Shown here: positions 2,015 through 18,891 of the stretch, piece after piece
Layout: each line of letters begins with the position of its first letter
How positions within the stretch are numbered: the stretch's first letter is position 1
Source: a virus
IMG/VR virus record: IMGVR_UViG_3300028829_004031
Location: 1-23,512 of that record
Length of the DNA: 23,512 bases
Strand: one strand, 5' to 3'
The notes under the pieces: generated by a model
What the model saw: only the letters and a program-made list of their open reading frames with translations
Database searches by the model: none
What the model was told of the DNA's origin: nothing
Made by a program: the position numbers and the translations under genes

Positions 2015-3136
2015 ATGAATAAACATTTACTAAATAATTTTAATAATAACTCTTTGCAGTATGACAAAGAAAAATACCCCTTTGATAAATATGTATTGTC
2101 AGTTATTCAAGAAGATCACCCTTATGTAGTTGAATTATCAAAGATTCATACATACAATCTTAGCGGTAATCAAATTCTTAAAATTAGTGAAAAGGTTCAA
2201 AAATCTTTTAGTAGTCATGAATTTGGTACTATGATTGATTCATTTGCTAGCGACTATTTACAGCCATTGATTGGGGACACAGAGTTTCTTGTCAAAAGAT
2301 ACCCAACCCTTAATTTTGTTGTTCCTAATCAAGAAGTGATCGGTAGACGTTTACCTTTTCATCAGGGTGTTACTTATGATAATGGTCGTGGGCAAGGAAC
2401 AATTTGGATGCCCTTAACACCAACATTCGATAGTAATTCTATGTATGTTGTTGATCATGAGAGTAGTAAAAAAATTACCACTTTTGCTATTATAAATCAA
2501 ATTACCTTTGAAGAATGGGAGAGATTATGTTTAGAAAGCTCTTATCCTATTAAGTATGATGTTGGGTTTGCTCATCTTTTTCATCAAGAAATAATACACG
2601 GAAATGTTAATAATGTTACCGACAATACTAGAATGGCTATTGACTGGCATATACTATTAAAAGACGAAGAGTTTGGCTGTAGAATTCCTGGAGGGTTTTT
2701 TAGAAAAAAAGAGGACTTCAAAGAAGCTACATTAGTCAATAATTCTCAACAAAGTATTATTTATATATCAAGCAACTCTGAGTATGATAAAAATATTGTT
2801 AAAATACATCAATATAATATGATCAAAGCATACTGTGACGCTAACAATATAGAATATAATTTTAAACTAGAAGAAAACGATCATTTTGCATGGCTGCCCT
2901 ATTTAGAGAGCCTAATGGAGCATGATTACATAGGCACAATACTTATGCTTAGTATATTCAGCCTACCTGATGACAAAGAACGAAGAAGTACAATACTTCA
3001 AAAAGCAGTTAAAAATAAGAAAAAAATTGTTTTTGCAAATGAAATGCAAATTATTGAAAACTTAAAGGATATAGCTACCGTTGAGTACTATAGAACTTTT
3101 GCTGTAAAGAAAAAAGGTAAGTATTATTGGGAATGA
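2015..3136 (+). CDS. 2OG-Fe(II) oxygenase-like / sporadic carbohydrate cluster fusion protein
   Basis: This 373-residue protein appears to be a two-domain fusion. Residues about 20-225 resemble the 2OG-Fe(II) oxygenase found in 'sporadic carbohydrate clusters': a PFHQG segment, then a WMPLTPTFDSNSM strand, then a distal HGNVNN (H195) and R206. Residues about 246-373 resemble the LIC12192-type sporadic carbohydrate cluster protein, with YNMIKAYC, the SLPDDKERR box and the K-I-VFANE strand. These families usually occur as adjacent separate genes in surface-polysaccharide loci. The expected proximal HxD iron site reads H116-Q-G118, so the Asp ligand is absent, as in 2OG halogenases or inactive relatives. 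It overlaps the next gene by ATGA. A role in sugar modification is inferred from the families. Confidence 0.75.
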   Translation: MNKHLLNNFNNNSLQYDKEKYPFDKYVLSVIQEDHPYVVELSKIHTYNLSGNQILKISEKVQKSFSSHEFGTMIDSFASDYLQPLIGDTEFLVKRYPTLNFVVPNQEVIGRRLPFHQGVTYDNGRGQGTIWMPLTPTFDSNSMYVVDHESSKKITTFAIINQITFEEWERLCLESSYPIKYDVGFAHLFHQEIIHGNVNNVTDNTRMAIDWHILLKDEEFGCRIPGGFFRKKEDFKEATLVNNSQQSIIYISSNSEYDKNIVKIHQYNMIKAYCDANNIEYNFKLEENDHFAWLPYLESLMEHDYIGTILMLSIFSLPDDKERRSTILQKAVKNKKKIVFANEMQIIENLKDIATVEYYRTFAVKKKGKYYWE

Positions 3137-3699
3137 TTTACGGTAGTGAAGGTTTAATTGATACTGATTTTATTATCAAAACTAATCTTGATACAGATAA
3201 TCTTGAATGGGAAGAAGCTTACTTATTAGCTGCTAATGAAACAGGGGTTTTGTTTGATTATAAAGGATCAAATGAAAATATAAAACAAGAGCAGCTTTAT
3301 ATCTCAAAGGGTATGAACCCCGAATCAAGTAAGCATTACGCTATGTTTAACGTCTCTTTAGATTTAGATAATTTTTTCCCTAATCATTACTATTATGTGT
3401 CTTACTTAAAATTACCTGCTGGGTATAACTTGTGGTGGCATAGAGATTTTTATTATTCTTTTCTTAATAAGCATAATATAAAAAATAGAAATAAAAATTC
3501 AATCAGAAGAACTATAATTAATCTAAATAATTGGAGTCCAGGTCAGTTATTTCAAGTAGAAGATGCTATTGCAATAGATTGGAAAAAAGGTGATTGTTAT
3601 ACTTTTAGAGAGAATATCTGGCATGGAGTAGGTAACTTCTCGCTTGAAGATTATATAATCATGCAAGTTACTTGGATAGACAAAAATGATATTTTATGA
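3133..3699 (+). CDS. 2OG-Fe(II) oxygenase
   Basis: The ATGA overlap with the previous stop makes ATG 3133 the start, giving 188 residues; a TTG six bases earlier is less likely. The iron-binding site is H103-R-D105 in LWWHRDFYY. It is followed by NNWSPGQLF, the DWKKGD strand and the distal H164 in WHGVGN. The usual basic 2OG-binding residue about ten positions later is not obvious: the segment reads EDYIIMQVT where relatives have R or K. This may mean a different 2OG anchor. It overlaps the radical SAM gene by 4 bases, so the two are translationally coupled and may act on the same substrate. Substrate unknown. Confidence 0.83.
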   Translation: MIYGSEGLIDTDFIIKTNLDTDNLEWEEAYLLAANETGVLFDYKGSNENIKQEQLYISKGMNPESSKHYAMFNVSLDLDNFFPNHYYYVSYLKLPAGYNLWWHRDFYYSFLNKHNIKNRNKNSIRRTIINLNNWSPGQLFQVEDAIAIDWKKGDCYTFRENIWHGVGNFSLEDYIIMQVTWIDKNDIL

Positions 3700-5384
3700 A
3701 AAATGTTTATTTAGCACAGTTTTCTACTGTCTCACTTGATACCTATTACTTTTTTCCTTATTCTGTAGGACTTATTCAGTCTTATGCTCATTCTGTACCT
3801 ATAATTGCAAAAAATTACGATTTAAAACCTCTGCTGTGGAAGAAACTACCAATTGATGAGTTAGTAAACTCACTTGATAATCCTGCAGTATTTGGCTTTT
3901 CTAGCTATGTGTGGAATGCTAACTACAATTTACAACTCGCAAAAGCTGTTAAAGCTAGATACCCAGAGTGTATTATCGTGTTTGGGGGTCCTGGCGTTCC
4001 TGACGCAGATGCAGACTTCTTTGTTAATCATCCTTGGGTTGATTACCTAATCCACACTGAAGGCGAGCAGAGTTTTGCAAATCTTTTAGAGACTCTATTA
4101 AAAGGTCCTTGTAAAACTCATGTTGCAATTCCCAGTAACCGTACTAAATCACTTGACACAATTCCATCACCTTATCTATCTGGCGTATTTGATTCAGTGC
4201 TTGCAGAAGCAGCAGAACAGAAAGTAATCATCAATGCACTACTTGAAACTAACCGTGGTTGCCCTTTTAAATGTACCTTTTGTGATTGGGGAGGGCTCAC
4301 TTTTTCTAAGATTCACTGTTTTGACTTAGACCGAATCAAGCAAGAGATAACCTGGCTAGGCAAAAACCAAATAGAGATGCTTAGTTTAGCTGACGCAAAC
4401 TTTGGTATTTTTCCAGATCGTGATCTTGAGATAGCACAGTGGGCAATAAAAATTAAACAAGAGTATGGATTTCCAAAATACTTTGATACTTCTTGGACTA
4501 AAAACACTAAACCTGTGACTATTGAAACTGCTAAATTATTAATGCAGGCCGGTATGTTGCGCAAGTTTGTTATGAGCCTCCAAACCTTAGATATTCAAAC
4601 TCTAAGCAATATCAAACGCAGAAACATTGATGGTAGTAAGTTTTCACAACTTATTGAAGATCGCAGTGTGAGTGTTTCAACAGAATTAATAGTTGGCTTA
4701 CCAGGTGAAACTCTTGCGTCTTATAAACAAGGAGTGTGTCAGTTGATTGATGATGAGATTAAAATTATCACTAATCCACTTACTTTATTACCTAATTCTG
4801 AGATGAGTACTTCTGAGTATCGCTCTCAATGGTCAATCGAATCTGTTACCTTTAAAAGTTCGTGGTCTTCACATGGTATAGACGAGTGGGAAGAACTTGT
4901 GGTTGCTACCTCTTCTTATACTACTAAAGATTGGAGTGAAATGATACTTTGGGGTTGGCTCACCGTATTTTTAGAAACCTACTACTGGACTGATTTAATA
5001 GCAAAGAGTTATAACACACAAATGTGGTACGATTGGTGTTATGCTTGGTTTAGAACACATAATAACCCCCTTACTCCCTGGCTTTCAAGATGGGAAAATC
5101 ATTTATCTGATGGACTAAGCTATGAATTATGGGGTGGAGGGGTTGGTACTACAGATTTAGATGCAAATCAAGCAATTATAGACAGTACTTGTTGGAATGA
5201 AACTTTAAAGCTATGTGTTAAAGAATTTTGTGATACACATTCTCTTCCTCATCCTTCTACTTATATACTAGAAACACAAGCTAATAGACATAAAGTTATA
5301 GACGGCTATTCATCGCTTTCACAACAGCTTGTCGCAAACCGTTGGAACTTTTTATCGCAAAATTTAGAGCACCAAGCTAACTAG
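3696..5384 (+). CDS. B12-binding-domain radical SAM enzyme
   Basis: A 562-residue protein. Residues about 1-140 form a Rossmann-type cobalamin-binding-like domain (VFGFSSYVWN, FGGPGVPD, HTEGEQSF) without an obvious DxHxxG motif. The radical SAM core follows, with C189-x3-C193-x2-C196 (RGCPFKCTFCDWGG) for the 4Fe-4S cluster and a GLPGE motif in the second half of the barrel. A Trp-rich C-terminal region of about 170 residues follows. The CDWG form is typical of B12-type radical SAM enzymes that methylate or rearrange unreactive carbons in natural products. Its substrate is unknown. It overlaps the 2OG oxygenase upstream and is the last gene before a promoter-bearing gap at 5385-5465. Confidence 0.87.
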   Translation: MKNVYLAQFSTVSLDTYYFFPYSVGLIQSYAHSVPIIAKNYDLKPLLWKKLPIDELVNSLDNPAVFGFSSYVWNANYNLQLAKAVKARYPECIIVFGGPGVPDADADFFVNHPWVDYLIHTEGEQSFANLLETLLKGPCKTHVAIPSNRTKSLDTIPSPYLSGVFDSVLAEAAEQKVIINALLETNRGCPFKCTFCDWGGLTFSKIHCFDLDRIKQEITWLGKNQIEMLSLADANFGIFPDRDLEIAQWAIKIKQEYGFPKYFDTSWTKNTKPVTIETAKLLMQAGMLRKFVMSLQTLDIQTLSNIKRRNIDGSKFSQLIEDRSVSVSTELIVGLPGETLASYKQGVCQLIDDEIKIITNPLTLLPNSEMSTSEYRSQWSIESVTFKSSWSSHGIDEWEELVVATSSYTTKDWSEMILWGWLTVFLETYYWTDLIAKSYNTQMWYDWCYAWFRTHNNPLTPWLSRWENHLSDGLSYELWGGGVGTTDLDANQAIIDSTCWNETLKLCVKEFCDTHSLPHPSTYILETQANRHKVIDGYSSLSQQLVANRWNFLSQNLEHQAN

Positions 5385-6256: not shown

Positions 6257-6739
6257 ATGAATCAGTATAAAGATTTAAATCAAGTTAAATCTCTAATTAA
6301 ACAAGCCTTTCTTATCAATCAAGTACTAGATGAATACAAGTTTACGAGTATTTTAGATATAGGTACTGGGCCTGGGATTATTAAAAGAGTTCTTGTCAAA
6401 CAAGGTAAATTATGTGATACTGTAGAACAGTATCAGCAATGGGGAGACTTTACCTCCTTCAACCCTTCAATTGATTACAGAATGGGGTATTATAAAGATA
6501 GAAAGTGGGAACTTCCTGTACTAGATAAAACGTATGATTGTGTCGTACTTTCAAGGTTTTTTGATCTTTTTCATACTGAAGTTGATTTTGAGTCTGTAGT
6601 AACAACATTGACCATGTTATACTCTAAAAATATTTTGATTCTACATAATCCAACAGCGTGGAGACTTAATACCCACGTGCAATCAATAGCAAAACGCCAT
6701 GACACTTTCCTATGGCCTATATATGTGTTACAGAGGTAG
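6257..6739 (+). CDS. SAM-dependent methyltransferase (class I)
   Basis: A 160-residue protein with a class I methyltransferase motif I at residues 31-41 (SILDIGTGPGI) and a later acidic strand YDCVVLSRFFDLF followed by KNILILHNP, as expected for the core Rossmann fold. The length is short (typical 200-250), so it is a minimal core without a recognisable substrate domain. The ATG comes 4 bases after tRNA-Gly, and the ribosome binding site is unclear. It precedes a 2OG oxygenase and the aminotransferase/amidinotransferase cassette. Substrate unknown; small molecule or sugar is inferred only from neighbours. Confidence 0.78.
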   Translation: MNQYKDLNQVKSLIKQAFLINQVLDEYKFTSILDIGTGPGIIKRVLVKQGKLCDTVEQYQQWGDFTSFNPSIDYRMGYYKDRKWELPVLDKTYDCVVLSRFFDLFHTEVDFESVVTTLTMLYSKNILILHNPTAWRLNTHVQSIAKRHDTFLWPIYVLQR

Positions 6740-6751
6740 AGAGATAAACAG

Positions 6752-7279
6752 ATGTTTCTTAAAGAAGTTTCTATAAATTACAACTTTGATTTTATCTACG
6801 ATATTGATTGGGAACAGTTTGAGCACGACTGTTTAGGGCATCAACAAGTAGAACTTAAAGATATTCACGATAAAGTTGGTGGCTTTCCTAAATCATTAAG
6901 TCATTATAACACTATGTTTTATCAAAAATTCTTTGATAACAGTGAAATAGATTATACAGATTTAGGTAATCAACTAGGTATAGAGGCAATTACTGTATCA
7001 ATGATTAAACAACCACCTGGCATGACTAACCCTATGCACCGCGATACTTTTTACCAGATCAATAAGAAATTTCCAAATGAAGAAAGAACAAAAGTCAGAG
7101 CTAACTTACAGCTGTTAGACTGGAAAGCAGGACACTTCTTACAGTTTAATGACACAGTAGTTACGCACTGGAAAGCAAATACGGGACATATGTGGGATTC
7201 AACAGTTCTTCATTTAGCAGCAAATGCAGGTCTAGAAGACCGTTATTCACTTCAAGTTTCAGGATTTTTAAACTCTTAA
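6752..7279 (+). CDS. 2OG-Fe(II) oxygenase
   Basis: A 175-residue oxygenase with the phage-type motif series. A QPPG strand leads to the iron site H96-R-D98. Next come LLDWKAGHFLQFND, HWKANTGHMWDS and the distal H154 (VLHLAANAG), then R164 for 2OG and the closing strand YSLQVSGF. It is the same subfamily as the enzymes at 15250 and 18903-22988. Its stop overlaps the aminotransferase start (TAATG), so it belongs to the same transcription unit and may hydroxylate a product of that pathway. Confidence 0.88.
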   Translation: MFLKEVSINYNFDFIYDIDWEQFEHDCLGHQQVELKDIHDKVGGFPKSLSHYNTMFYQKFFDNSEIDYTDLGNQLGIEAITVSMIKQPPGMTNPMHRDTFYQINKKFPNEERTKVRANLQLLDWKAGHFLQFNDTVVTHWKANTGHMWDSTVLHLAANAGLEDRYSLQVSGFLNS

Positions 7280-8211
7280 TGGTTCGCTATACAAATCTTC
7301 CCGACAATAAGAACAAACCTTTTGGAGGTGCTTACAGTGTTTATGATGAAAATACTGTATCTCATCGCGACTACTTAATTCAAGAGTATGCAAAAGATAC
7401 TTTAAGTCTCGACTTTGAGCAACTTAAACTTGATTATTTTGATGAATTTAAACACTTTCTCGGAAATTCTCATAATTTAATTGGTCTTGATTCTTACATT
7501 CATTCTTGTTTTACTCAAGGCACGACTGAATCCTTTACTCATTTTTATATTAGATATAGAAATAAAAACAGATTGAGGCTTGCTCGTGGAGAGTATTTTT
7601 ATCATCAGATGATAAAATCTATGTACTATCCTATGCGCTTTGATTGGTTAGAAGATGATGAGCTAAAACAAGGAGACGTGTTAGTAATTAGTGCTCCTTT
7701 TTCTGATACTTGTGAACTATATCCAAATCTTGAGCAAATACTATGTGAGTGTGATGAAAAAGAAATACCTGTTCTTTTGGATCTTGCATATCTTAATATT
7801 GCAATTGATTTGGAGATAGACTTATCGCACCCTTGTTTAGAGTATGTTGTGTCTTCTCTTTCTAAAGTTTTTCCTGTAGAGAATCATAGGATAGGTATCA
7901 GATTACAAAAAGAGATATTTGAAGACCCGTTATATGTAATTAACGAGCCCAATTATAACTATATTAATATGTTAAGCGTGTACTTAGGTTTAAAAATGAT
8001 GCAAGAGTTTGGTCCTACCTATATTTACAATAAATACGTAAATAAACAGCAAGAGTACTGTATGAAATTAGGTCTTAAACCTACTTCTTGTGTGTATTTT
8101 GGGTTAGATCTTGATAACAAATTTCCAGAATATAATAGAGGTAGAGAACATAATCGTTTGTGTTTTTCTAGATTATGGGATGGTAGAATGACTTATGAAC
8201 CTCCTATTTGA
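7279..8211 (+). CDS. PLP-dependent aminotransferase-like enzyme (fold type I)
   Basis: An in-frame ATG exists 87 bases earlier, but the TAATG junction with the upstream gene favours 7279 (310 aa). Signature elements of fold type I PLP enzymes are present in order: a phosphate-binding TQGTTES (79-85), a possible stacking aromatic in GEYFYH (about 105-109), the pyridine-binding D168 (LLDLAYL), and the Schiff-base Lys K196 (SSLSK) followed by an Arg-rich strand. It is shorter than typical aminotransferases (about 380-420), so the N-terminal or C-terminal small domain is reduced. A damaged paralogue lies at 17112-17868. Next to an amidinotransferase, it plausibly installs the amine that is then amidinated, as in streptidine-type pathways; this is inference. 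Confidence 0.75.
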   Translation: MVRYTNLPDNKNKPFGGAYSVYDENTVSHRDYLIQEYAKDTLSLDFEQLKLDYFDEFKHFLGNSHNLIGLDSYIHSCFTQGTTESFTHFYIRYRNKNRLRLARGEYFYHQMIKSMYYPMRFDWLEDDELKQGDVLVISAPFSDTCELYPNLEQILCECDEKEIPVLLDLAYLNIAIDLEIDLSHPCLEYVVSSLSKVFPVENHRIGIRLQKEIFEDPLYVINEPNYNYINMLSVYLGLKMMQEFGPTYIYNKYVNKQQEYCMKLGLKPTSCVYFGLDLDNKFPEYNRGREHNRLCFSRLWDGRMTYEPPI

Positions 8212-9277
8212 TTCATTAAATAAACCTAATTTAGAATCTTATAACGCACCCAATGCATATTCCTATTTTTATCACAAAGGTTTTTATGTACCACAGATAT
8301 TCTATCAATACAAAGATATAATTAAATGTTATACTACTAATCAGATTAATGAGTTGGATTTTTTTGTATATCCAATTAATTTCTGTGATCCCTATTACCA
8401 CCCAGAGCTAAATAAAAGCGGTAAGTTCTTAACCCACATTGATAAACAGGTATTAGACAAAGTAAAAAACAATAAAGGTATTATTTTAATTGATGCTATT
8501 TATGAAGCCTTTAATCTAAATCATTCTTTGGAACTCAAAGAGAATATTGAAAAACTAACGGGTATCAATAATGTATTTTTAAATTCAAGATTTTTTCATC
8601 TATTTCCTGATGATACTTTTTTTACAAACTTTCCTTCTCTTCTTGAATTTTCTGAGTGCCATGTACAAATTGACAACGAAATTAAGGTTAATACAAATAA
8701 AAAATTCTGCCTATTTGGTTCTAGTATTGATAAACACATTGGTGGTCTATGTCTTATAAAGTGGTTAAAAGAGCAAAAACTTCTTTCTCAGGGTCACATA
8801 AGTTTATCTCGTACCACTAGTGTCCTTGATAATGGTCGTTGGTTAGCGTTTATACGTCCTTTTATAGCTATAGATGCTCTTAACTACGTTGACTTCAATA
8901 TTGTTGTAGAATCGTGGTTTACCTCTGTAGGCAATGAAGATTATCCATTCTTATCTGAGAAAGTATTTAGAAATATCCATTATAAAAAACCTTTTGTATT
9001 AGTAGGGCAGGTAGATACTATTAAACAGTTTAAAAGGTTAGGCTATAAAACTTATGATGAAGTGTTTGACGAGTCTTATGACACAGAAAAAGACAGTTAT
9101 ATTAGGTTACACAAAGTCTTTACACAAATACAACGGTTGATTAATGAACCAGAAGATTTCTGGCAGAAAAACAAAGAAAAACTAGATGATATACATAATC
9201 ATAACTTAAATAATTACAAAAATAGAATACTAAGTTTAAGTAAATTTTATGAAGATCTTACACGTGGAGTAATTTAA
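8195..9277 (+). CDS. Glycosyltransferase-like protein, copy 1
   Basis: A 360-residue protein homologous to the product at 10292. The C-terminal third carries the shared block DFNIVVES...PFLSEKVFRN...KKPFVLVG...LGYKTYDEVFDESYD (about 233-297). It resembles the nucleotide-sugar-binding C-terminal domain of GT-B type glycosyltransferases (the E-K...P..F...G pattern), as seen in many unannotated marine phage proteins. Residues 170-180 (KFCLFGSSIDK) could start the second Rossmann-like half. No transmembrane segment is seen. It overlaps the aminotransferase by 17 bases and the amidinotransferase by 1 base. Sugar transfer is a plausible function; donor and acceptor are unknown. Confidence 0.62.
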   Translation: MNLLFDSLNKPNLESYNAPNAYSYFYHKGFYVPQIFYQYKDIIKCYTTNQINELDFFVYPINFCDPYYHPELNKSGKFLTHIDKQVLDKVKNNKGIILIDAIYEAFNLNHSLELKENIEKLTGINNVFLNSRFFHLFPDDTFFTNFPSLLEFSECHVQIDNEIKVNTNKKFCLFGSSIDKHIGGLCLIKWLKEQKLLSQGHISLSRTTSVLDNGRWLAFIRPFIAIDALNYVDFNIVVESWFTSVGNEDYPFLSEKVFRNIHYKKPFVLVGQVDTIKQFKRLGYKTYDEVFDESYDTEKDSYIRLHKVFTQIQRLINEPEDFWQKNKEKLDDIHNHNLNNYKNRILSLSKFYEDLTRGVI

Positions 9278-10299
9278 TGAGCTGCAATAACGATTGGGAT
9301 CCCTTAGAAGAAATCATTGTAGGAACTGCTGACTTTGCAAATATACCTGTTCCTAATATCAGCGTAATGAAATCTCAATTTCCTGAGTACGAAGAGACTT
9401 TTATCAAAGAGTTTACAGGGTTTTACCCAGACCAAATCATAGAAGAACAAAACGAAGACTTAGACAAACTTGCAGACGTATTAAAAAGATTAGGAGTTAC
9501 AGTTCATCGTCCTGATACGTCGTACGCTACAGCTGAAACTAAATCTCCTACTTGGCATGGAAAAAATTGGCATTATTATAGTCCAAGAGATCTTACTCTT
9601 GTTGTAGGCGATACACTCATAGAAACTCCTTCACCAATTTGGAATCGTCAATTTGAAACATGGGGTTATAGAGATGTTTTTACTAAGCTTTGGCATGAAG
9701 GATATAATTGGATTAAAGCACCCGTTCCAATGCTTTACGATGAGAACTATAAAGAAGATACAAAAGGCGTACCTTCTTTGCACAATGAAGAAATACTTTT
9801 TGAGGCAGCTAATTGTGTTCGTATGAATGATGATATACTCTATCAAGTATCAAACACCGGTAATGAAAACGGAGCTAAATGGTTACAACGAGTTTTAGGA
9901 GATTCTTATAAAGTACACGTAGCAAAAGATCTTTATTCTTATGCTCATCTTGATAGTACTATTGTTCCATTGAGAGAAGGTCTTGTACTATATAACGCAA
10001 CAAGGGTAACTCCTCAAAACGAACCTGAAGTATTCAAAAACTGGGATAAGATTTGGGTCCATGACTGTGTAGGATCGGCTAATTCCTTCAATCTTCCTTG
10101 GGGTGCAAGTGAGTGGATTGGCATGAACTTACTCAGCGTAAATGAAAATCTTGCTATTGTAGATAAAAAACAAACTGAAATCCACGATAAACTTAATCGT
10201 TTTGGTATTGAAACTATTCCTCTCGAATTAAGACATGATAGAGTTTTAGCTGGAGGGTTCCACTGCGTAACTCTCGATCTCAAAAGAAAAAATGCTTAA
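9277..10299 (+). CDS. Glycine/inosamine-type amidinotransferase
   Basis: A 340-residue enzyme of the arginine:glycine / arginine:inosamine-phosphate amidinotransferase family, which transfers the amidino group of arginine to an amine. Visible landmarks: SPRDLTLVVGDTLIE (D105), LFEAANCVR (176-179), YAHLDSTIVPLREGLVL (H224, D226) and the catalytic C330 in AGGFHCVTLDL. The length fits StrB-type and AGAT cores (about 340-420). Where vertebrate AGAT has FDAAD, this protein has FEAAN, so one acidic residue near the active site differs. Its TAATG start couples it to the glycosyltransferase-like gene, and its end overlaps the next by 8 bases. The acceptor (glycine, an amino sugar or an inosamine) cannot be told. 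Confidence 0.9.
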   Translation: MSCNNDWDPLEEIIVGTADFANIPVPNISVMKSQFPEYEETFIKEFTGFYPDQIIEEQNEDLDKLADVLKRLGVTVHRPDTSYATAETKSPTWHGKNWHYYSPRDLTLVVGDTLIETPSPIWNRQFETWGYRDVFTKLWHEGYNWIKAPVPMLYDENYKEDTKGVPSLHNEEILFEAANCVRMNDDILYQVSNTGNENGAKWLQRVLGDSYKVHVAKDLYSYAHLDSTIVPLREGLVLYNATRVTPQNEPEVFKNWDKIWVHDCVGSANSFNLPWGASEWIGMNLLSVNENLAIVDKKQTEIHDKLNRFGIETIPLELRHDRVLAGGFHCVTLDLKRKNA

Positions 10300-11443
10300 C
10301 ATAGTTCTTGATAACTTGAACACTTCAAATGTTTGGTTTCCCAAAAAACCGAACTGCTTTCCGTGGTTTAGTAAATCACTTGTTTCTGAACCACGTAGTA
10401 GTACGTCTAAATTTCAACAACCAGACCACAAAGTAACACTTCCAATTTTACTTTATTGTATGGAAAATTTTTCTATCCACAACTCAGCAAACCAATTAGA
10501 TACGTTTATTTATCCTGTATCAATGCCTGAACCTTACATTCAAGTTAGGTCTTTAATAGCAAATCAAAATGCTTATGGTTTTTGGTCTCACGTCTCTGAT
10601 AGCGTAATTGAAGCGTTGAAAGAAAAAAGAGGTTGGATAATTATTGATTTACATTCTGAACCGCTCGGTCAGTCTGACTTTGATGATATGTTAGTTGCAT
10701 TGTCTGATACTTCTGTATTTCCAAATGATAGAATCTTAATAAACGTAACCTCTCCTCATTTTGCTGATAATAAACGAGTATTTTGTTATCCTAGCCATTT
10801 GGAACTTGGTTGCATTATGCATGAGTTATACCCTAATTTAAATATTATAAATCCTTGTCCTTGTCATCCTAAAAATTTAAAAAAGTTAGACTATCTACGC
10901 AAAAGATTTCTACTTCTTAGCAGTCATAGAGATCTCCCTATTAACGCGATTTTAGATAAGTATGCTAGTAAATATCCTAATTTGTTTTTAGATAGTGCAA
11001 ACAATTTAGAAAACACATTTTTTAGTTCTCGTTTTTTACTTTTACCTAACGCACTGTATGCAACTGATTTTAATATCGCGATAGAAGCTTATTTAGAAAA
11101 CAATGTGGTTGAGTATCCGTTTCTTACTGAAAAGACTTTGAGAAATATTAAGTACAAAAAACCTTTTATTTTACTAGGTCAACAATCAACTCTCGCAGCT
11201 CTTCATAAATTAGGCTACAAAACTTTTCATCCATTTGTTGACGAGTCTTATGATGAAATTAAGGATACAGAACTAAGATGTGCAACAGTGTTAAGAGAAT
11301 TAAATAGATTGAGAAAAATGAATGATACTGAGTGGTCTAACTTTTTAGATAACTGCAAACCTATAGTTGAACATAATTATAACAATCTACTAAGACGTGT
11401 AAATCAAACTAGGGCTTGGCTAGAGGAGTTAAAAAATCTATAA
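10292..11443 (+). CDS. Glycosyltransferase-like protein, copy 2
   Basis: A 383-residue paralogue of the product at 8195. Shared blocks include YPSHLELG (about 166-173; copy 1 FPSLLEF), DFNIAIEAYLEN (259-270) and YPFLTEKTLRNI...KKPFILLG...LGYKTFH...DESYDEIKD (275-325). A CPCHPKN patch near 188-194 is unique to this copy and could bind metal. It probably shares the GT-B-like fold, with a different acceptor preference. It overlaps the amidinotransferase by 8 bases and the next small gene by 1 base. The two copies flank the amidinotransferase, suggesting duplication within a functional cassette. Confidence 0.62.
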   Translation: MLNIVLDNLNTSNVWFPKKPNCFPWFSKSLVSEPRSSTSKFQQPDHKVTLPILLYCMENFSIHNSANQLDTFIYPVSMPEPYIQVRSLIANQNAYGFWSHVSDSVIEALKEKRGWIIIDLHSEPLGQSDFDDMLVALSDTSVFPNDRILINVTSPHFADNKRVFCYPSHLELGCIMHELYPNLNIINPCPCHPKNLKKLDYLRKRFLLLSSHRDLPINAILDKYASKYPNLFLDSANNLENTFFSSRFLLLPNALYATDFNIAIEAYLENNVVEYPFLTEKTLRNIKYKKPFILLGQQSTLAALHKLGYKTFHPFVDESYDEIKDTELRCATVLRELNRLRKMNDTEWSNFLDNCKPIVEHNYNNLLRRVNQTRAWLEELKNL

Positions 11444-13694: not shown

Positions 13695-14606
13695 ATGACA
13701 CAAAAAATTAAATGGTTACTCTTTCATGAGCCTGCTGAATTGTTCATCCGTACTGCACGACACTTTGAACAAGAACTTAATGCTTTGACAGATGGAGCCT
13801 ATGAGTTTGAGATTTTAGAACTCGCAGACTATGAAACAAAATACTTAAATGGCAATCGTTGTGACCCTATTACAGAGTTAAAAGAAGGTCGTGTTCAAAT
13901 GAGCCAGATCTACATTAACAACTTAGCTCGTGCAAATGTTACTAACTTCTTAGCACTAGGACTACCTTTCCTTTTCCGCGATCATGCTCATGCAGCTCGC
14001 GTATTTGAAGGTGAAATTGGTGCAGAACTTTTAGAGAATATCAAAGAACGCATTGGTATCAAAGGTCTTTCGTTTACCTACTCTGGTGGATATAAGTGTA
14101 TGGCAGTAAACCGTTCTATCAAGCAAGTCTCTGATTTTGCAGGATTAAAGTATAAAGTTCGTCCAAATGCTGTTTCTTCTTCAATCTTTGATGCACTTGG
14201 CGCAACTCCTGCTGAGAAGTCTGATATTGATATTGCTGATACAACTCTTCCTCGCTATCATGCTGATGCTCGTGAAGATCAAACCTATGCTATCAATACG
14301 GGTCATGCAATGTATCTCACTACAATTCTAACCAACAATGAAATGTTCAACGCCATGAGCGAAGAGCATCAAGCAGCTTTTGTAAAGGCAGCTAAGATTG
14401 CGGCTTCTGCTGAACGCACACAAAGTGTACAAGATGCAAACGAAATTGCAACTACTCCAACTCTTCAGCGTGAGCGTGGAATTAATGAATTTATTACTTG
14501 GAATGAATCTCAGCTTGAAGAACTACGTGCTCGGTTGATTCCAGTTCTTAACTCTTGGAAAGCCTACTTTCCGAATGACTTGGTTAACCGCATCCAAGCT
14601 TGTTAA
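13695..14606 (+). CDS. TRAP/DctP-type solute-binding protein without signal peptide
   Basis: A 303-residue protein of the DctP family of TRAP-transporter substrate-binding proteins. Family landmarks are LPFLFRDHAHAARVFEGEIG (about 95-114), the GLKYKVRPNAVSSSIFDALGATP segment with the carboxylate-binding Arg, and a long C-terminal helix region (MSEEHQAAFVKAAKIAA). Normal members have a Sec signal peptide and 320-340 residues; this one begins directly with the first strand (MTQKIKWLLFHEPAE) and would stay in the cytoplasm or virion. No membrane TRAP subunits are nearby. It has its own strong promoter and ribosome binding site, and its sequence looks more G+C-rich than its neighbours. It may bind a metabolite inside the infected cell or form a structural element. 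Confidence 0.82.
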   Translation: MTQKIKWLLFHEPAELFIRTARHFEQELNALTDGAYEFEILELADYETKYLNGNRCDPITELKEGRVQMSQIYINNLARANVTNFLALGLPFLFRDHAHAARVFEGEIGAELLENIKERIGIKGLSFTYSGGYKCMAVNRSIKQVSDFAGLKYKVRPNAVSSSIFDALGATPAEKSDIDIADTTLPRYHADAREDQTYAINTGHAMYLTTILTNNEMFNAMSEEHQAAFVKAAKIAASAERTQSVQDANEIATTPTLQRERGINEFITWNESQLEELRARLIPVLNSWKAYFPNDLVNRIQAC

Positions 14607-16992: not shown

Positions 16993-17134
16993 CGATCATC
17001 AAGCAGCAGAAGTTTTATTTCTTAGAAAACAGGTAGCAGAACTTAGAGATACTATTGAGTTCCTTAAAGAAGATAATAGAGAGCTTACTAAGTGTTACTA
17101 TAAGGTATTGCATGATAAAAACAAAGAGACCTAG
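16967..17134 (+). CDS. Small coiled-coil protein (55 aa), GTG start
   Basis: GTG at 16967, about 8 bases after GGGGAG, opens a 55-residue frame beginning (M)DSDKLIFNDHQAAEVLFLRK and ending at TAG 17132. The middle has clear heptads (AAEVLFLRKQVAELRDTIEFLKE), so it is very likely a coiled coil. It lies in a different frame from the previous gene (26-base overlap) and overlaps the start of the damaged aminotransferase (23 bases). The strong ribosome binding site and protein-like sequence support a real gene. Confidence 0.7.
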   Translation: MDSDKLIFNDHQAAEVLFLRKQVAELRDTIEFLKEDNRELTKCYYKVLHDKNKET

Positions 17135-17868
17135 ATTTCAGCAGGGAAAGTTCGTTCCAGATCCTACCCTGCTTTCTTTTAATCCAAATATTGATTTATC
17201 ACTTGTTAATGATGATTCTGTTTCTGATAAGTATTTAGATACTTATCGTTCTTGGATACTTTCGACAAAAAACAACAGTCTATCTGGTTTGTCTTATTTC
17301 CCTTTTGCTGCTTTTTCACAAGGTACAACCGAAGCTTTTGATAAATTCTACGTTCGACACTCTAAACGAGTTTTTAGAGTTTTTCGTGGAGAATATGCTT
17401 ATCATAAAATAATGTTTAAATCAGGACTTGATTGGTCTTTTATTGAAGATTCTCCACTAAGTAAAAATGATGCACTAATTATTTCAATTCCTTTTGCTAA
17501 ATATTGATCTTACTTATCCTTGTATCAGAGAAGTTACTTTTTCTCTTTCAAAAACATTTCCAGTGTCCAGATTTAGGGTTGGTATTAGATTTTCAAAGGA
17601 GGACTATGAAGCTGACGGCTTGTTTTCTCATAATAAAAATAAATATATAAATTTCTTCTCTCAACACCTTGGTATTCAATATATGTTAAACTTTTCTCCA
17701 GATTATTTATTTGATACATACAGAGCTAAACAACTAGCGTTATGTTCTAAACTCGCTGTTAATCCCTCTAATGTAGTCTCTCTTGCTACTACACGCGATG
17801 AACAATGGAAGCATCTATGTAGAGGAGGAGAGTATTTTAGACTTTGTTTGTCGGATGAATTGGTATAA
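17112..17868 (+). pseudogene. Broken second copy of the PLP aminotransferase-like gene
   Basis: The 5' part (from ATG 17112, MIKTKRPRFQ...) and the 3' part (about 17496-17868, in another frame) together match the gene at 7279. Shared segments are FSQGTTEAFDKFY (intact FTQGTTESFTHFY), FRGEYAYHK, IISIPFA, then NIDLTYPC (intact EIDLSHPC), FSLSKTFPVSRFRVGIR with the PLP Lys, and the RGGEYFRLCLS end. At about 17496-17510 roughly 35 codons are missing, including the PLP-binding Asp segment LLDLAYL, and the frame changes by one. A single intact enzyme cannot be produced. Outside the gap the sequence is still protein-like, so the damage is recent or an assembly error. Confidence 0.82.
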
Positions 17869-17910: not shown

Positions 17911-18891
17911 ATGTCAAATATGTATTGGGAGTACGCAGGTACTCGATACCGTCAAAAATTTCTGGCAATTCAAGCTGCTGGCAAAAATGTAAATTCTATT
18001 ACATTTAACGCCTTCAGCAATGTCTTTCATAATTACGATTGGTCAATCGAACCTCCTACTCCCTTTTCAAAACTTTGTGACTTAAGAGCGCAACAATTGC
18101 GAGATCAGTACTCCTATATTAAACTTTATTTTAGTGGAGGAGCTGACAGCACGACTATGCTTAACGCCTTTTTAAGAACTAACACTTTTATTGATGAAAT
18201 TGTTATTTGGAGATTAAGCTTAGTGAATGACTTTAATTGTTTTTCAAACTCTGAAGCTAATGACTTCGCTATTCCTTACATAAAAAGTCTTAATCTCCCA
18301 AAAACTAAGATTAAGATTTTAGATATAGGACATGAATACTATAGTAAACTACTTGAAGGTGACAAGTTTATCTATACAAAGAATAATATAGATCTAAGGG
18401 AAACTTTTATTCCTAAAATTCGTGGCAAGAATTTTTGCCATTTACTTGGGGATTTTGAGCCTTGTATCATTTACGAAGATGGTAAATGGTATGAACAAGT
18501 TTTTGACTCTAATAATTTAGTAGAATATAAATATAGGTCTATGGAAGGATTCTTTACTTCTGAGCATTTACCAGAGCTACACGCTAAACAGTGCCATTTG
18601 GTAAAGAACTATCTTAAAAATATTAATAAGGATGCTATCCGTACAGAGTGGCAAAAAGTTGTAAGAGAAAAGCCCATAGCTTCTGTACCTAAGTTTATTA
18701 AACCTAGAACAGGAACTTCTTTTAGAAGTTTACAAGATATGATGTCTAAAGACTTTGTTATGCTAAAAGCGCGTGGTACAAAAGAACTACGAGATAAGTA
18801 TTATGGTATTTTAAGCCAAAAAATAAATAATAAAAGACTCATTGATATTGTTGATGGGATCAAAGGTGAAACATTTTGTTTAGGAAATTAA
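17911..18891 (+). CDS. PP-loop ATP pyrophosphatase (asparagine synthase/QueC-like core)
   Basis: A 326-residue protein with the PP-loop SGGADS at residues 75-80 (KLYFSGGADSTTML), the signature of ATP-pyrophosphatases that adenylate a carbonyl or similar group before amide or thio transfer. No glutaminase domain and no zinc Cys quartet (as in QueC) are visible, so the nucleophile and substrate are unknown. The N-terminal 60 residues and the C-terminal basic, helical third (RTEWQKVVREK, KARGTKELRDKY) are not recognised. No Shine-Dalgarno sequence precedes ATG 17911; an in-frame ATG at 17920 also lacks one. It is followed 11 bases later by the 2OG oxygenase run and could activate a substrate for it. 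Confidence 0.8.
   Translation: MSNMYWEYAGTRYRQKFLAIQAAGKNVNSITFNAFSNVFHNYDWSIEPPTPFSKLCDLRAQQLRDQYSYIKLYFSGGADSTTMLNAFLRTNTFIDEIVIWRLSLVNDFNCFSNSEANDFAIPYIKSLNLPKTKIKILDIGHEYYSKLLEGDKFIYTKNNIDLRETFIPKIRGKNFCHLLGDFEPCIIYEDGKWYEQVFDSNNLVEYKYRSMEGFFTSEHLPELHAKQCHLVKNYLKNINKDAIRTEWQKVVREKPIASVPKFIKPRTGTSFRSLQDMMSKDFVMLKARGTKELRDKYYGILSQKINNKRLIDIVDGIKGETFCLGN

Follow-up and report, generated by a model that had tools for sequence, protein, structure and literature searches.

Two Campylobacter phages, CP220 and CPt10, were reported in 2010 each to carry a putative glycine amidinotransferase within an exchangeable radical S-adenosylmethionine (SAM) module (PMC2853527). A study of gypsum-lake viruses lists K00613, and the KEGG-style label of such viral genes is 'glycine amidinotransferase' (PMC8226683), while Synechococcus phage S-SCSM2R carries a gene annotated 'inosamine amidinotransferase'. 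Beyond phages, the closest described enzyme is StrB1 (1BWD), the L-arginine:inosamine-phosphate amidinotransferase of streptomycin biosynthesis. Here we analyze an operon built around a StrB1-like amidinotransferase gene in virus record IMGVR_UViG_3300028829_004031, a linear fragment of 23,512 bases which, at its full length, we call the window. A first-pass annotation of this DNA held that a phage making a guanidinylated sugar or a guanidino-modified nucleotide would be new. Phage amidinotransferases were known before; what is new is the variant in which two 2-oxoglutarate (2OG) enzymes and a pyridoxal phosphate (PLP) enzyme accompany the amidinotransferase in a conserved operon, a core for which a literature search lacking most subscription journals returned no published description.

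The described phage systems resemble the cassette in part. The CP220 and CPt10 modules share an amidinotransferase of the same superfamily, the character of an exchangeable metabolic module, and nucleotide-diphospho-sugar transferase domains, near which the CP220 amidinotransferase gene lies. In contrast, their amidinotransferases are 23-33% identical to the enzyme studied here and sit on a long branch, radical SAM proteins stand in place of the 2OG enzymes, and no PLP gene of the cassette's family was seen. The S-SCSM2R enzyme is closer (39% identity), with a 2OG gene directly upstream and annotated glycosyltransferases (GTs) around it, but an annotated 3-amino-5-hydroxybenzoic acid synthase replaces the class I/II PLP enzyme and no fusion gene of the kind described below was found.

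A conserved core in viral loci

The genes of the window on which our argument depends, together with one weakly matched neighbor, are as follows.

2015..3136, + strand: 2OG-oxygenase-like/LIC12192-like fusion, 373 aa (NCBIfam matches, alignment, HQG motif)
6257..6739, + strand: weakly methyltransferase-like open reading frame (ORF) outside the conserved core (Pfam Methyltransf_23, E 0.015)
6752..7279, + strand: 2OG-Fe(II) oxygenase-like protein, 175 aa, core gene (alignment; weak Pfam Asp_Arg_Hydrox match, E 0.005)
7279..8211, + strand: compact fold-type-I PLP enzyme, class I/II aminotransferase-like, 310 aa, core gene (AlphaFold model and fold search)
8195..9277, + strand: GT-B-like putative glycosyltransferase a, 360 aa, accessory (paralogue of 10292-11443, synteny)
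9277..10299, + strand: StrB1-like L-arginine:amine amidinotransferase, 340 aa, core gene (phmmer, active-site residues, tree)
10292..11443, + strand: GT-B-like putative glycosyltransferase b, 383 aa, accessory (AlphaFold model and PDB fold matches)

The first-pass annotation had singled out the last four of these as coupled, and the four plus-strand ORFs do overlap, by 17, 1 and 8 bases; the 2OG gene in turn overlaps the PLP gene by 1 base. The arrangement is not a product of chance, since homologues of all four ORFs, usually syntenic, occur in independent viral contigs. Searching with hidden Markov models built from our own alignments, we compared 49 related viral loci that encode the amidinotransferase, 50 with the window. 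Their genes do recur together, the co-occurrence for which that annotation had suggested a search, but the set that evolution has kept coupled differs from the four ORFs, which are a local arrangement around a wider core with the order 2OG-oxygenase fusion, 2OG oxygenase, PLP enzyme, amidinotransferase. Of the 50 loci, 48 have the PLP gene upstream of the amidinotransferase gene; in the remaining two the contig ends at that point (L022) or a GT gene takes its place (L047). Upstream positions are likewise held by the 175-aa 2OG gene in 46 loci and by the fusion gene in 35 of the 38 that have at least 2.6 kb of upstream sequence. Most relatives carry the fusion directly upstream of the 2OG-PLP-amidinotransferase genes, whereas in the window it is displaced upstream, and about 3.6 kb separate it from the 2OG gene.

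The PLP and amidinotransferase genes of most relatives adjoin each other directly and overlap by 11-14 bases; in just four loci (the window, L007, L011 and L016) does a gene of the 8195-9277 type separate them. GT family genes lie within 6 kb in 12 of the 15 loci with wide flanks, at varying positions. Two upstream genes had also been counted in the same run: the 2OG gene proves to be a member of the conserved block, but the putative methyltransferase resembles Rossmann proteins no more than weakly (E 0.015 in Pfam, 3e-4 in PHROG) and is common to few relatives (L005, L006, L007 and L011). Carriers of the cassette are tailed phages, since one contig (L028) has tape-measure and tail-fibre J genes alongside it; a search of the relatives for a T4-like capsid (PF07068) gave no match, but its control was also silent and the search is uninformative. 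Downstream of the amidinotransferase, 17 of 41 relatives have a gene that looks SGNH/GDSL-like by eye (GES/GDSFSYG start; Pfam E 0.028 for one member), which we have not used as evidence.

Predicted enzymes of the operon

The product of 9277-10299 is almost certainly, to judge from its sequence, an amidinotransferase of the superfamily that includes StrB1 and L-arginine:glycine amidinotransferase (AGAT), as had been predicted. StrB1 was its best PDB match by phmmer (E 1e-88), followed by HsvA (2e-52), SxtG (3e-50) and human AGAT (1e-49). Identity to StrB1 is 44.5% over 335 residues with no aligned insertion or deletion of 3 or more residues; identity to human AGAT is 32.2%, and AGAT has a 13-residue insertion absent from the phage enzyme. 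Residues C330, H224, D105, D226, R243 and S278 correspond to AGAT Cys407, His303, Asp170, Asp305, Arg322 and Ser355, and the catalytic Cys and His, together with the arginine-binding Asp170, Asp305 and Arg322 (AGAT numbers), are present in the window and in 13 core-clade sequences, as they are in StrB1. The position of the charge-relay Asp254 of AGAT is E176 in the window, and every core-clade phage sequence tested has Glu there; this conservative change also occurs in one Actinomadura homologue, whereas StrB1 retains Asp. The first-pass annotation had proposed a structural comparison of the pockets; at the level of aligned residues it is seen that the AGAT features are absent but that those of StrB1 are not simply retained: AGAT residues 300-302 (Asn-Pro-Met) read Ser-Tyr-Ala in the phage enzyme and Ala-Ser-Thr in StrB1, and AGAT Asn300, Met302 and Ser359 are replaced by Ser, Ala and Gly, the Gly being shared with StrB1. 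Both the insertion and the acceptor-site Asn300 and Met302 that mark AGAT-type enzymes are thus missing.

In our tree, from which SxtG was left out, the phage amidinotransferases form a clade with 100/100 support on a long stem. AGAT and HsvA form a separate clade (100/100), and the weakly supported neighbors of the phage clade are a divergent viral sequence (L050), a Bdellovibrionota metagenome-assembled genome (MAG; L065) and a contig binned as 'Chloroflexi' (L067). Approximately unbiased (AU) tests rejected a single clade of phage enzymes and StrB1 (p 0.001) and disfavoured, short of rejection, a grouping with AGAT/HsvA (p 0.061). By sequence and indels, then, the phage enzyme is StrB1-like; the tree does not reveal which acceptor it uses, since the tests reject the StrB1 sister relationship and do not quite reject the AGAT/HsvA alternative.

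The PLP gene product matches Pfam Aminotran_1_2 below the cut-off (E 0.0047) and HisC in a profile search (E 0.001). Its AlphaFold model (predicted local distance difference test, pLDDT, 87.6) has 748 PDB matches at E <=0.001 in Foldseek. Plu4, HisC, kynurenine aminotransferase and C-S lyases head the list, MppP and GntC rank shortly after them, and all of these have E ~1e-9. D168, K196, R204 and R293 are invariant across the core alignment, and the first three provide the pyridine-nitrogen Asp, Schiff-base Lys and phosphate Arg of fold type I. As the fold neighbors span aminotransferase, lyase, oxidase and decarboxylase activities, transamination is the default expectation, a prediction from the model. 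The label aminotransferase thus stands as far as a fold-type-I PLP enzyme is concerned, but the likeness is to class I/II enzymes (HisC and MppP among others) and not to the DegT/StsC type, which we take to be that of the sugar aminotransferases of streptidine synthesis. A second PLP gene of this family (17055-17868) is broken in the window into two ORFs in different frames with an internal stretch missing; an intact relative (L016, 10853-11716) is 95% identical over the N-terminal part. Adjoining the broken gene, 17911-18891 encodes a protein with an SGGxDS PP-loop-like motif and no Pfam match.

The fusion protein joins an N-terminal domain resembling TIGR04324 (sporadic carbohydrate cluster 2OG-Fe(II) oxygenase; E 1.6e-17) to a C-terminal domain resembling TIGR04323 (LIC12192 family; E 3.6e-9), and by its scores is a relative, not a member, of these families. 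TIGR04324 scored above its cut-off in 6 of 399 Pseudomonadota genomes, where the TIGR04323-like stretch is an adjoining separate gene; the domain order is the same, but only the phage proteins are fused. All 41 phage sequences covering the metal site read HQG instead of HxD, whereas the bacterial TIGR04324 relatives read HSD there (L093, L094). Replacement of HXD/E by HXG/A is the criterion used to pick out Fe/2OG halogenases (PMC11186838). The phage motif conforms to it in every sequence, so that halogenation by the fusion has to be considered a serious possibility; it may also be that activity has been lost. Like the aliphatic halogenases AdaV and BesD (HXG/A), the fusion has Gly in place of the metal-binding Asp and keeps the distal His and Arg, but no sequence relation to them was found, and a PDB profile search with the fusion alignment returned chance matches only. 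In the small 2OG protein the HxD motif (H96/D98) and the distal H154 are invariant. The window as a whole holds about ten putative 2OG-oxygenase ORFs between 1039 and 22988 (starts 1039, 2015, 3127, 6752, 15250, 18903, 19693, 20400, 21071 and 22233), identified for the most part from motifs and from resemblance to one another, with weak or no Pfam matches in most cases.

The two proteins that flank the amidinotransferase, earlier described as glycosyltransferase-like, are paralogues (29% identical) from one family of 36 aligned members. That description is consistent with an AlphaFold model of the 10292-11443 product (pLDDT 81.9; predicted TM-score, pTM, 0.84), which likely has a GT-B fold of two Rossmann-like domains; its PDB fold matches are mainly GT-B proteins, with LanGT2 best (E 8e-4) followed by trehalose-phosphate synthases, exostosins, TreT and fucosyltransferases. 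By its paralogy to this protein alone, the 8195-9277 product is putatively GT-B-like as well.

Possible products of the operon

We tentatively propose, with somewhat less than even confidence, that the operon makes a guanidinylated, oxidized sugar or cyclitol, which the GTs then join to a glycan. A sugar- or cyclitol-like precursor would first be oxidized by one or both of the 2OG enzymes, with the HxG fusion perhaps halogenating it instead of hydroxylating it; the PLP enzyme would convert a keto group to an amine; the StrB1-like enzyme would transfer the amidino group of L-arginine to that amine through its catalytic Cys, releasing ornithine; and the variable GT-B proteins would transfer the product, or neighboring sugars, to a virion or host-surface glycan. 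We infer the sugar as substrate, the order of these steps and the target from what sequence and predicted structure provide, namely the amidinotransferase family and its catalytic residues, the PLP fold and lysine, one GT-B-like fold, the gene order and the homology of the fusion. The proposal is favored because the arginine-binding and catalytic residues of a StrB1-like enzyme are intact, because a PLP gene precedes it in nearly all loci, because the fusion matches two sporadic carbohydrate cluster families whose genes are separate neighbors in Pseudomonadota, because GT family genes, one of them with a modelled GT-B-like fold, are near in most loci with wide flanks, because genes resembling UDP-sugar/GDP-mannose dehydrogenase and a NAD-dependent epimerase lie just upstream in one contig (L039), and because the S-SCSM2R and CP220 amidinotransferases also sit near sugar-transfer genes, the former together with the annotated 3-amino-5-hydroxybenzoic acid synthase. 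A more ambitious version, in which marine phages possess a dedicated pathway to a guanidinylated, possibly chlorinated sugar that decorates virion or host glycans by way of a carbohydrate-cluster 2OG enzyme with an acquired halogenase-type iron site, is in our judgment decidedly unlikely as a whole.

Several observations weigh against the guanidino-sugar proposal. None of these enzymes is placed in a guanidino-sugar pathway already described, and the PLP enzyme differs in type from the usual sugar aminotransferases. The fusion falls under the curated cut-offs (63.9 against 150 bits for TIGR04324, 36.6 against 55 bits for TIGR04323), the GT-like family has no credible match in sequence searches of Pfam and PDB, and the Foldseek TM-scores of the GT model are low (0.3-0.4) with modest E values. 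A streptidine pathway would be expected to show StsC-, StrI- and StrN-type genes; nothing resembling these, and no kinase or dehydrogenase of the pathway, was recognized among the phage genes scanned, and streptidine synthesis proper was set aside. Overall, the interpretation offered in the first-pass annotation is supported in part.

The relatives also carry the cassette among nucleotide-metabolism genes, and the main rival, which we hold to be unlikely, is accordingly DNA hypermodification: the 2OG, PLP, amidinotransferase and GT proteins would build a guanidino- (and glycosyl-) nucleotide or base as a protection against restriction. In related contigs, L009 among them, the core has nrdA, nrdB, mazG and phoH on one side and, on the other, genes for a PDDEXK nuclease, a 5'-3' exonuclease, a weakly matched dUTPase-like protein, thyX and a GT28-like protein. 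Yet the part of the flanking genes that was scanned held no base hydroxymethylase, hydroxymethyluracil kinase or 7-deazaguanine pathway, and neither the carbohydrate-cluster likeness of the fusion nor the sugar-nucleotide enzymes in L039 would be expected. It is also conceivable, if rather improbable, that the product is not a glycan component but a guanidino amino acid or osmolyte derived from arginine; the substrate of the PLP enzyme would then be arginine or oxidized arginine, as it is for MppP, Plu4 and GntC. Those three are among its best fold matches and its conserved C-terminal Arg would fit an alpha-carboxylate, but HisC, kynurenine aminotransferase and C-S lyases match it just as well, and the GTs and the fusion would be left unexplained.

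Modification of a virion protein, by guanidination or hydroxylation of side chains with GTs acting on the same protein, is very doubtful: the small 2OG protein weakly resembles Asp/Asn beta-hydroxylases and the cassette occurs on a contig with tail genes, but no precursor peptide or carrier protein was recognized and, to our knowledge, the described enzymes of the amidinotransferase family have small-molecule substrates. Creatine-type metabolism, in which an AGAT would help the host make guanidinoacetate, is suggested by the KEGG-style name and by an AGAT/HsvA grouping that escapes strict rejection. We consider it exceedingly improbable, given the far better fit of StrB1, the missing AGAT insertion, the replaced pocket residues and the lack of an identified guanidinoacetate methyltransferase gene nearby; sequence and pocket both disfavor it. 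Viral amidinotransferases tend to receive a creatine-type label; here the enzyme is StrB1-like. The conserved operon that joins it to a PLP enzyme and two 2OG enzymes in about 50 marine viral loci points to natural-product-like phage chemistry, and makes guanidino-sugar synthesis by phages, and halogenation by an HxG 2OG enzyme of a carbohydrate family, testable now.

Neighboring genes and bacterial relatives

PADLOC found no defence-system match among eight genes, and a defence reading was dropped. Elsewhere in the window, 3696-5384 encodes a B12-dependent radical SAM protein of the KedN5-like C-methyltransferase family (239 bits, below the cut-off), and 13695-14606 a phage-borne solute-binding protein of the tripartite ATP-independent periplasmic (TRAP) type (DctP, 107 bits) with, by eye, no obvious N-terminal signal peptide.

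Genes of the same kinds are also found together in bacteria. One Bdellovibrionota MAG contig, which carries SpoIID and UvrC genes, has 2OG, amidinotransferase, PLP and GT-like genes together, and in further Bdellovibrionota genomes the PLP family lies amid radical SAM-looking proteins; in three clusters (L114, L115 and L116) many of these have an FCxLPW start or a CNxxCxxC motif and are radical SAM-like by eye. The contig binned as Chloroflexi (L067, GC 28%), which may be a misbinned viral contig, combines amidinotransferase, B12 radical SAM, GT-like, carbamoyltransferase and tryptophan-halogenase genes. In Halieaceae/Luminiphilus (L069, L075, L076 and L077) an amidinotransferase gene is followed by one for a protein of ~1,400 aa and preceded by a recurring set of genes.

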